Source: Blattabacterium cuenoti (GTDB lineage: Bacteria; Bacteroidota; Bacteroidia; Flavobacteriales; Blattabacteriaceae). From it: a stretch of DNA of 64,000 bases. The number at the start of each line of letters is the position of its first letter. Within the stretch, counting starts at the first letter, position 1. The stretch covers positions 186,001 through 250,000 of the forward strand of contig NZ_CP059197.1 in NCBI RefSeq assembly GCF_014251735.1. Reading direction: 5' to 3'. Positions 39,418-51,585 of the stretch are shown in pieces. A program made the translations under genes and the position numbers. The notes under the pieces were generated by a model that saw only the letters and a program-made list of their open reading frames with translations, was not told the origin of the DNA and searched no databases.

Positions 39418-40275
39418 TTAAAGTATAATTTTTTCTATTGGAAGTACTAATATATCTTGTGCCCCAAGCGCTTTTAAATTTTCTACAATTCCCCAAAAAT
39501 CATTTTCATTGACTACAGAATGCACAGAACTACATTCTGAATTTGCTAATGGAAGAATAGCTGGACTTTTAATTCCTGGAAGATAAGATATTATTTTTTC
39601 TAATCGTTCATTAGGGACATTTAAAAGAATATATTTGTTGTTTTTAGCTTTTTTTACAGCTCGTATTCTAAATAGAAGTTTATCCATGATGATGTTTTGT
39701 GGTGATCCCAAATGAAGATGAGATGCGAGAACAGCTTCAGATTGAAGGATGGTTTCTACTTCTTTTAATCCATTCATGAAAAGTGTAGAACCGCTACTCA
39801 CTAAATCACAAATACAATCTGCTAATCCTATTCCAGGAGCAATTTCTACTGCCCCAGATATTTCGTGAATTTCCGCTTTGATATATTTTTTTTCGAAAAA
39901 TTCTCTAACTAAAAAAGGATAACTAGTTGCAATACGTTTTCCATTTAAATCATTTATATTTTTGTATATCAAAGATTTAGGAACTGCTATGGAAAGACGA
40001 CATTTTCCAAATCCCAAAGTTTCTTTTATTTGTATTTTTTTTCTTTTCTCTAAAAGCACATTTTTTCCTACAATTCCTATATCCGCTACTCCATCTTCTA
40101 AATATTGAGGAATATCATCATCTCGTAGAAAAAGGATTTCCAGCGGGAAATTAAGAGCTGTTGTCTTTAATTTATCTATACCAATATTAATCTCAATGCT
40201 GCAATCTTTAAGCAACTTGATGGAGTCCTCATAAAGACGACCTGATTTTTGAATAGCTATTTTAAGTTTATCCAT
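39418..40275 (-). CDS. hisG: ATP phosphoribosyltransferase HisG (long form)
   Basis: A 285-residue HisG of the long type, with the C-terminal regulatory domain (about 215-285) that binds histidine. KLKIAIQKSGRLYEDS (3-18), DIGIVGKNVL, RIATSYPFLVREFF, GAVEIAPGIGLADCICDLVSSG and VHSVVNENDFWGIVENLKALGA are visible. It commits PRPP and ATP to histidine and is normally feedback-inhibited by His; keeping the regulatory domain suggests allosteric control survives. It heads the his operon, with a hairpin 12 bases ahead of the ATG. Confidence 0.97.
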   Translation of the reverse strand: MDKLKIAIQKSGRLYEDSIKLLKDCSIEINIGIDKLKTTALNFPLEILFLRDDDIPQYLEDGVADIGIVGKNVLLEKRKKIQIKETLGFGKCRLSIAVPKSLIYKNINDLNGKRIATSYPFLVREFFEKKYIKAEIHEISGAVEIAPGIGLADCICDLVSSGSTLFMNGLKEVETILQSEAVLASHLHLGSPQNIIMDKLLFRIRAVKKAKNNKYILLNVPNERLEKIISYLPGIKSPAILPLANSECSSVHSVVNENDFWGIVENLKALGAQDILVLPIEKIIL

Positions 40276-40287
40276 ATAAAAAATAAT

Positions 40288-40312
40288 AAAAGCTTACAAA
40301 AAGTAAGCTTTT
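40288..40312 (-). terminator. Terminator-like hairpin in the hisG leader (possible attenuator)
   Basis: A perfect 10-bp stem (AAAAGCTTAC at 40288-40297 with GTAAGCTTTT at 40303-40312) has a 5-base loop. In the minus-strand transcript it is followed by ATTATTTTTTAT and then the hisG ATG. The region is a divergent gap (hisG and xth point away), so it has no upstream gene to terminate on the minus strand. Because the stem is symmetric, T's also follow on the plus strand. I found no histidine-rich leader peptide. Confidence 0.5.
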
Positions 40313-49961: not shown

Positions 49962-51368
49962 TCATATATTTTTAGCTAATTCTATAGCCATAAATAAGGC
50001 CATAAGTTTATTATTCACTTCTTCCAACTCTTTTTCTTCTTTAGAATCGGAAACTATACCTGCTCCAGCTTGAAAAAAAAGAATATTGTTTTTACTGACA
50101 AAAGAACGAATAACAATAGCTGTATTAATATAATTATTATTCAATCCAAAAAATCCAATAGCTCCACCATATACTCCTCTATGTTGATTCTCTATCTGAT
50201 CAATCAATTCCATAGCTTTGTATTTAGGTGCTCCAGAAAGAGTTCCTGCAGGAAAAGAATCCCCAAATACTTTTATAATGGATATATTTTCTTCTAATTG
50301 TCCAGATACCTTGGATACCATATGTAATACATGTGAAAATTCTTGTATTTCCTTAAAATATTCTACTCTTACATTGGAGGAATTTCTACTTAAATCATTT
50401 CTTGCTAAATCAACTAACATAACATGTTCTGCATTCTCTTTAGGATTCTTAAAAAGATCTTCAGATAATCTTTTATCTGTATTTTCATCTCCTGATCTTC
50501 GTATCGTTCCTGCTATAGGATTTATATAAGCGATTTGATTATGAATTACTAATTGAGATTCTGGAGAAGAACCAAACAACTTGTAGTTTCCATAATCGAA
50601 ATAAAACAAATACGGAGAAGGATTAATAAATCGTAAAGCACGATATACATTAAACTCATCTCCTTTAAATTTTTGTTGAAATTGACGAGATAGGACAATT
50701 TGGAACACATCTCCACGTAAACAAGCTTTTATTCCTCTATATACCATTTTTTGATATTCATGATCTGTGACGTTAGACGAACGACTTCCTATAGATTTAA
50801 AGGAAAAAACAGAAAAATTTTTTCTTCTAACTAATTCAATTAATTGATCTATAGATATATTTTCAATATTAGGAAATTGATGTTCTATTAGATACATTTC
50901 ATTGTAAAATGGATGAAATATTATTAAATTTCCATAAAATCCAAATCGGATTTGTGGTAATTTATAAGATTCCTTAATAGGAGCATGAAATTGAATATTT
51001 TCAAAATATTGAATACTATCGTAAGATATATATCCATAAAACCCAGAATAATAAATGGAAGTGTTTTCGCTTTGAAATTTTTGGAAAAAATCATCAATTA
51101 AAACTGGAATATCCAATCTATTATTTATAAAAATATGTTTATGAACACAATTTGGATACGATATACGTACTACATTTTTATCTAAAATCAATTCCGAAAC
51201 TGGATTAATACAAAGAATGGAAGAATATCTTTTTTTAATAGAACAATTGGAAGTTTCTAATAATAAAGTTTTCGGAAAACGATCTCTTAGTTTTAAATAT
51301 AATTCTATTGGTGTAGTACTATCAGCCAAAATTTTTTTCTGAATAGTTCTAAAACTAAATTTGAACAT
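49962..51368 (-). CDS. trpE: Anthranilate synthase component I
   Basis: A 468-residue chorismate-utilising enzyme. The C-terminal catalytic domain shows LRGDVFQIVLSRQFQQKF, NPSPYLFYFDYG, IAGTIRRSGDENTDKRL, EHVMLVDLARNDLSRNS, SHVLHMVSKVSGQL, FPAGTLSGAPKYKAMELID and QAGAGIVSDSKEEKELEEV. The N-terminal part has the short feedback-site-like segment TTPIELYLKLRD and LLLETS. It converts chorismate to anthranilate with TrpG and is normally inhibited by tryptophan. First gene of the operon, with a terminator-like hairpin in its leader. Confidence 0.97.
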   Translation of the reverse strand: MFKFSFRTIQKKILADSTTPIELYLKLRDRFPKTLLLETSNCSIKKRYSSILCINPVSELILDKNVVRISYPNCVHKHIFINNRLDIPVLIDDFFQKFQSENTSIYYSGFYGYISYDSIQYFENIQFHAPIKESYKLPQIRFGFYGNLIIFHPFYNEMYLIEHQFPNIENISIDQLIELVRRKNFSVFSFKSIGSRSSNVTDHEYQKMVYRGIKACLRGDVFQIVLSRQFQQKFKGDEFNVYRALRFINPSPYLFYFDYGNYKLFGSSPESQLVIHNQIAYINPIAGTIRRSGDENTDKRLSEDLFKNPKENAEHVMLVDLARNDLSRNSSNVRVEYFKEIQEFSHVLHMVSKVSGQLEENISIIKVFGDSFPAGTLSGAPKYKAMELIDQIENQHRGVYGGAIGFFGLNNNYINTAIVIRSFVSKNNILFFQAGAGIVSDSKEEKELEEVNNKLMALFMAIELAKNI

Positions 51369-51392
51369 GGTTTATAGTATTTTGACATGATG

Positions 51393-51420
51393 AAAAAAAG
51401 GCTGCCATAAAGACAAGCCT
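51393..51420 (-). terminator. Terminator-like hairpin in the trpE leader (possible attenuator)
   Basis: On the minus strand AGGCTTGTC (51420-51412) pairs with GGCAGCCT (51406-51399) through eight pairs with one bulged T and a TTTAT loop, followed directly by seven T's. It ends 24 bases before the trpE ATG. No gene lies upstream on this strand (the porin is divergent). No leader peptide with Trp codons was found. Confidence 0.55.
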
Positions 51421-51510
51421 CAGAAATATTGTTGATATATCCCCCTTTATTCAAGGACTGACAATGAAATGAAGATTATCTATTTTTTTACTTTCGAATT
51501 TACCTAATCA

Positions 51511-51518
51511 CAAAGATA
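51511..51518 (-). promoter_or_regulatory. Predicted -7 promoter box TATCTTTG for the trp operon
   Basis: Minus-strand TATCTTTG matches TAnnTTTG. Transcription starting near 51505 would give a leader of about 137 bases that contains the hairpin at 51393-51420. The -33 region is not convincing. Confidence 0.42.
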
Positions 51519-51585
51519 AATAAATTTTTCATATCTATGGATATTTATAAGTAGTAGAATTGCTAATTCAATTACAATTAATTAT

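Follow-up and report, generated by a model that had tools for sequence, protein, structure and literature searches.

The trpE leader of the cockroach symbiont Blattabacterium cuenoti contains a hairpin followed by a run of T residues that is probably a relic, namely, the intrinsic terminator of a ribosome-mediated trp attenuator of the Flavobacteriales, which would have lost its leader peptide and antiterminator and would now cause unregulated, partial termination. In the 64,000-nt stretch of the genome that was analyzed (the window), the hairpin AGGCT(T)GTC-TTTAT-GGC-AGCCT lies on the minus strand at positions 51420–51399, and folding and conservation support a structure of eight pairs with one bulged T and a five-base loop. 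Read 5′ to 3′ on that strand, A51420 and GGCT (to 51416) are followed by the bulged T51415, GTC (51414–51412), the loop TTTAT (51411–51407), and a 3′ arm composed of GGC (51406–51404) and AGCC (51403–51400), with T51399 pairing with A51420. The stem-closing T51399 is also the first base of a run of seven T residues directly 3′ of the stem (51399–51393, minus strand), and a 24-base spacer (51392–51369, minus strand), which contains AAATACTATAAACC (AAATACCATAAACC in most relatives), separates this run from the ATG of trpE (51368). trpE (49962–51368, minus strand), identified as the gene for anthranilate synthase component I from the ORFs, their translations, and trpE relatives, is the first gene of the operon trpE-G-D-C-F-B-A, which extends down to about 44992 on the minus strand; the genes other than trpE were named from their translations. 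The gap at 51369–51585 is divergent, with trpE on the minus strand and a 602-aa ORF on the plus strand, and therefore no upstream gene terminates there. On the opposite strand, the homopolymer run precedes the hairpin instead of following it; therefore, terminator action is possible only towards trpE. A preliminary description of this DNA had reported an eight-pair stem ending in seven T residues, 24 bases before trpE, in a divergent gap where no gene needs terminating; the former held up against the sequence, folding, and shuffled controls, and the latter agrees with the orientation of the two flanking genes.

When folded alone, the trpE-leader hairpin had an energy of −10.9 kcal/mol (z −3.3), and 0/200 shuffles were equally stable. 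In a search for hairpins with T tracts in the 150 nt upstream of trpE, it had an energy of −10.4 kcal/mol, which was matched by 0/60 shuffles; the whole trpE leader of the window species was not unusually structured (z −0.5). The sequence features that define an intrinsic terminator, a stable GC-containing hairpin and then an immediate U tract, are both found here. A simple terminator pattern scan of the window missed the hairpin, probably because of the bulge in its stem, and an Rfam search of the window returned one tRNA only, with no family, the trp leader included, above the gathering cut-off at the hairpin. A genome-wide scan (642,499 bases, 27.7% GC) showed that hairpins with T-rich tails are frequent and mostly intragenic. 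Because such hairpins are common in an AT-rich genome, energy alone is weak proof of the trpE hairpin. Among the intergenic hits at leader positions, the trpE hairpin was near the strongest, with that of the ilvD leader slightly stronger (−10.7) and that of hisG close.

At the level of sequence, the decisive evidence for the trpE hairpin is its conservation across the genus. The comparison covered the window genome and 32 other genomes, with trpE in all 33; left out were G026, in which trpE is only a broken remnant (L034), and G007, G027, and G035, from which a true trpE is apparently missing. In the aligned upstream regions of most species, the hairpin and T run occupied equivalent positions, with the consensus AGGCTTGTC-TTTAT-GACGGCCT-T(5–9), and by manual count the terminator is kept in 23/33 genus members, counting L009, in which the stem is weakened, and L011 and L027, in which it is rebuilt. 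Stem pairing was preserved in 97% of the cells of the aligned set, compared with 18–50% when the partners were slid. Formal covariation in the stem was weak (120/500 shuffles were as good) because the stem rarely varies; one case of a clear double change was found in L010, where a G-C pair has become A-U with the pair kept, and in L017 and L020 the stem is re-paired differently, without the bulge. Among the core-set species, which were selected for hairpin presence, identity was 0.93 in the stem 5′ arm, 1.00 in the T tract, and 0.50 in the upstream spacer. RNAalifold applied to 18 leaders predicted the terminator and nothing else.

Thus, the comparison of trpE leaders that had been proposed as a check showed a conserved stem and T run, though the hairpin was lost or badly weakened in 10/33 lineages, corresponding to roughly eight changes when traced on the trpE tree, and left no trace in L003, L006, L023, L029, L030, and L032. 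The species losing it still have an open trpE reading frame, and hairpin loss is not tied to trpE loss; because these lineages dispensed with it while trpE remained open, the hairpin is dispensable, and its repeated loss speaks against its being essential. The same losses, including the six loci without a trace, are compatible with a decaying remnant that has no present function and has been conserved merely through too little elapsed time. We consider this very improbable, because the stem and T run are intact beside a leader with about 50% pairwise identity and many indels, the stem stays GC-rich despite the low GC content of the genome, and the pair in L010 was kept via changes on both sides, while L017 and L020 have re-paired the stem.

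The comparison also took in nine free-living relatives from the order to which the genus belongs (Flavobacteriales), each with a full trpE. In 9/9, the leader encodes a short peptide containing two to four Trp codons (WW, WWW, or more), including MNFWWNTY in L035, MRTILNNTWWWSNLRQTS in L038, MINSKLNNWWWPVLTQYVGQSRYKNI, MNRTISNNWWWTSFNPEEKR, and others, and 9/9 also had a terminator 14–84 nt before trpE, with energies of −10 to −19 kcal/mol. Except in L035, a possible antiterminator overlapping the terminator 5′ arm was present (8/9 relatives, −12 to −15 kcal/mol). L035 is placed as sister to the genus in the trpE tree (support 97/91), and its terminator, GGCTTGTC-TGTA-GACAAGC-T7, shares its 5′ arm with the genus consensus. 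Because this sister has nearly the same stem, the genus hairpin is read as a descendant of the ancestral terminator, most simply of one of the L035 type. The genus stem (eight pairs and a bulge, −9 to −10 kcal/mol) is weaker than those of most relatives. A comparative attenuator survey from 2010, cited in PMC4833913, may already describe Flavobacteriales trp attenuators. The genus leader resembles the ribosome-mediated trp attenuator (the trpL type, with E. coli as the paradigm, and the Flavobacteriales form with NNWWW peptides) in its position before trpE, in the order of promoter, leader, and terminator, and in its hairpin with a U run, and its stem differs little in sequence from that of its closest free-living relative.

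The near fixation of the hairpin sequence across the genus might also be expected if the stem, lying in the 5′ untranslated region, served to shield the trp mRNA or to keep the trpE start exposed rather than to terminate transcription. The hisG hairpin of the same genus, discussed below, may begin about 20–30 nt from the predicted start (L068 and L053), a typical place for a stabilizing 5′ hairpin. However, the core set, in which every species was selected for hairpin presence, shows full conservation of the T tract, which is needed for termination only, and 9/9 free-living homologues use the same kind of hairpin and T tract as a terminator, which makes this role improbable.

In contrast to the ribosome-mediated attenuator, the genus has neither a Trp-codon peptide nor an antiterminator above chance. 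Upstream of the hairpin in the window, TATCTTTG (51518–51511, minus strand) matches the Bacteroidota −7 element TAnnTTTG, at the same position in most genus members, and known promoter spacing predicts a start site a few bases downstream, at about 51506 (minus strand). The leader of about 90 nt between the −7 element and the hairpin (51510–51421, minus strand) has no ORF with Trp codons. Leader ORFs with at least two Trp codons were found in 0/33 genus members, compared with 9/9 free-living relatives, and the single-Trp frames in genus leaders were isolated and not conserved. The leader ORF search therefore bears out the earlier statement that no Trp-codon leader peptide lies between the predicted start site and the hairpin, whereas the alternative antiterminator stem for which a search had been suggested did not emerge above chance: the mean z against shuffled leaders was −0.3, and species-specific matching was not detected, with 1873/10000 permutations as good (p 0.19). 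In a few species, antiterminator-like pairing was about as stable as the terminator, at −9 to −10 kcal/mol. The undetected antiterminator is soft evidence, because the antiterminators of individual free-living relatives do not always exceed shuffles either (that of L035 does not) and the leader is AT-rich. With no Trp-codon peptide and no above-chance antiterminator, there is therefore no visible Trp sensor, and because it fails both tests, the trpE leader is not classed as a working trp attenuator. Regulated control of trp in the genus is not supported.

About 18 species conserve two leader blocks, the A box AATGTCATT and the B box AATGGTATTC, with pairwise identities of 0.83 and 0.82, respectively, compared with 0.50 for the spacer. 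The strongly conserved blocks AATGTCATTTC and AAATGGTATTC, both absent from the window species, lie within about 60 nt 3′ of the −7 element in some 18 of the genus trpE leaders (e.g., L004, L007, and L022). The A and B boxes can form a 10-pair stem, and the B box can pair with AATACCAT just before trpE. Together with the antiterminator-like pairing in a few species and the many genus ilvD leaders that keep mutually exclusive folds without a leader peptide, these features could belong to a still-regulated attenuator with a non-standard sensor, in which the A box, the B box, a mini-ORF (ATG GTA TTC TTC AAT TAA), or an alternative fold toggles the terminator. We consider such a sensor unlikely, because no covariation was detected for A:B (p 0.43), B:tail (p 0.26), or the antiterminator (p 0.19), because the window species has the hairpin yet lacks both boxes, and because the mini-ORF has no Trp codon. 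As a candidate structure, the A:B 5′ hairpin was rejected (mean z −0.3 against shuffles, in addition to the lack of covariation), as was the B box as a motif common to several operons, since its matches in the genus were mostly trpE leaders and the others were scattered one-mismatch hits. A long-range pairing of AATGGTATT with AATACCAT before trpE was perfect in many species, but the own-against-cross permutation was not convincing (p 0.04 over all 33, 0.29 in the core set, and 0.26 with clean segments); we do not accept this pairing as established and retain it as a lead.

The relic-terminator reading of trpE has a counterpart in the window, where the hairpin AAAGCTTAC-TTTTT-GTAAGCTTT with a T-rich tail (40289–40311, minus strand) precedes hisG (39418–40275). 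In free-living relatives (L044, L048, and L069), the hisG leader combines stretches of consecutive His codons with a terminator; the genus has lost these codons and retains the hairpin AAGCTTAC-N-GTAAGCTT together with the T-rich stretch after it. The hisG stem is kept in nearly all genus members (loci L045–L073) and, among those read, is clearly missing only in G035. The distance from the promoter element to the hairpin is often no more than a few tens of bases, and in some leaders only about 20–30 nt separate the predicted start site from the stem (L068 and L053). In the trpE and hisG leaders alike, the peptide has been lost and the terminator kept between the promoter and the first gene, although the hisG hairpin, from a His-codon attenuator, is more strongly retained and has a perfect stem (AAGCTTAC/GTAAGCTT) and a shorter leader. 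A third retained leader terminator precedes ilvD (G000:C1:97425–97451, plus strand; loci L107–L136): the leaders of the relatives L140 and L141 combine a terminator with the coding sequence of a peptide rich in Ile and Val (MMQISIIITSVIVVNV...), and most genus members have CCCTACT...AGTAGGG and then CTTTTTGA, with no Ile/Val leader ORF seen in the genus ilvD leaders. Many of these leaders also keep a stable hairpin further upstream, which was significant, and many have the pairing CTATTCAAGT:ACTTGATAG, which is exclusive with the terminator; in the own-against-cross test of this alternative pairing, 0/10,000 permutations were as good, a result inflated by the relatedness of the species. The ilvD leader is thus a possible peptide-free switch. 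Further hairpins with T runs lie downstream of a promoter element resembling TATATTTG and upstream of the start of a phosphoadenylyl-sulfate-reductase-like gene (L142) and a metE-like gene (L143), and Rfam gave no match in the loci containing them.

The preliminary description had suggested a control mode shared by trpE and hisG. Common ancestry and retention of the hairpins stand, also for ilvD; working control of trp, for which neither a sensor nor an antiterminator was found, does not, and each hairpin comes from its own ancestral attenuator. As far as the sequences can tell, the link between trp and his is one of shared history, and it extends to ilvD. A bolder view is that the trp, his, and ilvD attenuators lost their peptides and kept their terminators (and, in ilvD, exclusive folds as well) to form a peptide-free RNA switch that regulates the provisioning genes of a genome with few regulators; we regard this as distinctly unlikely.

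If the trpE hairpin is a relic terminator, it would correspond to segment 3:4 of the ancestral attenuator. Transcription would begin near 51506, and RNA polymerase would have transcribed about 110 nt on reaching the hairpin with its tract of seven U residues. A fixed fraction of trp transcripts probably still stops at the U tract, which would yield a short leader RNA and lower the expression of trpEGDCFBA without sensing Trp-tRNA.

Among the papers searched, we found none on leader terminators in this symbiont genus. In Buchnera aphidicola, genes are without leader sequences and attenuation systems are not used (PMC3091783), and this symbiont has been described as having lost attenuation (PMC3229713), while in Serratia symbiotica, leader peptides and attenuators are eroding (PMC4122931). 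Both Buchnera and the genus studied here are reduced, amino-acid-providing symbionts that have lost leader peptides; unlike in Buchnera, the terminator survives in the trp, his, and ilvD leaders of this genus. These leaders suggest a course of switch decay under genome reduction in which the sensor is lost first and the off-signal persists, in parallel in no fewer than two amino-acid operons, and probably in three. Should these terminators still be active, they would set a fixed output for nutrient genes on which the host depends, and selection on expression level alone, without sensing, would become testable in an obligate symbiont.
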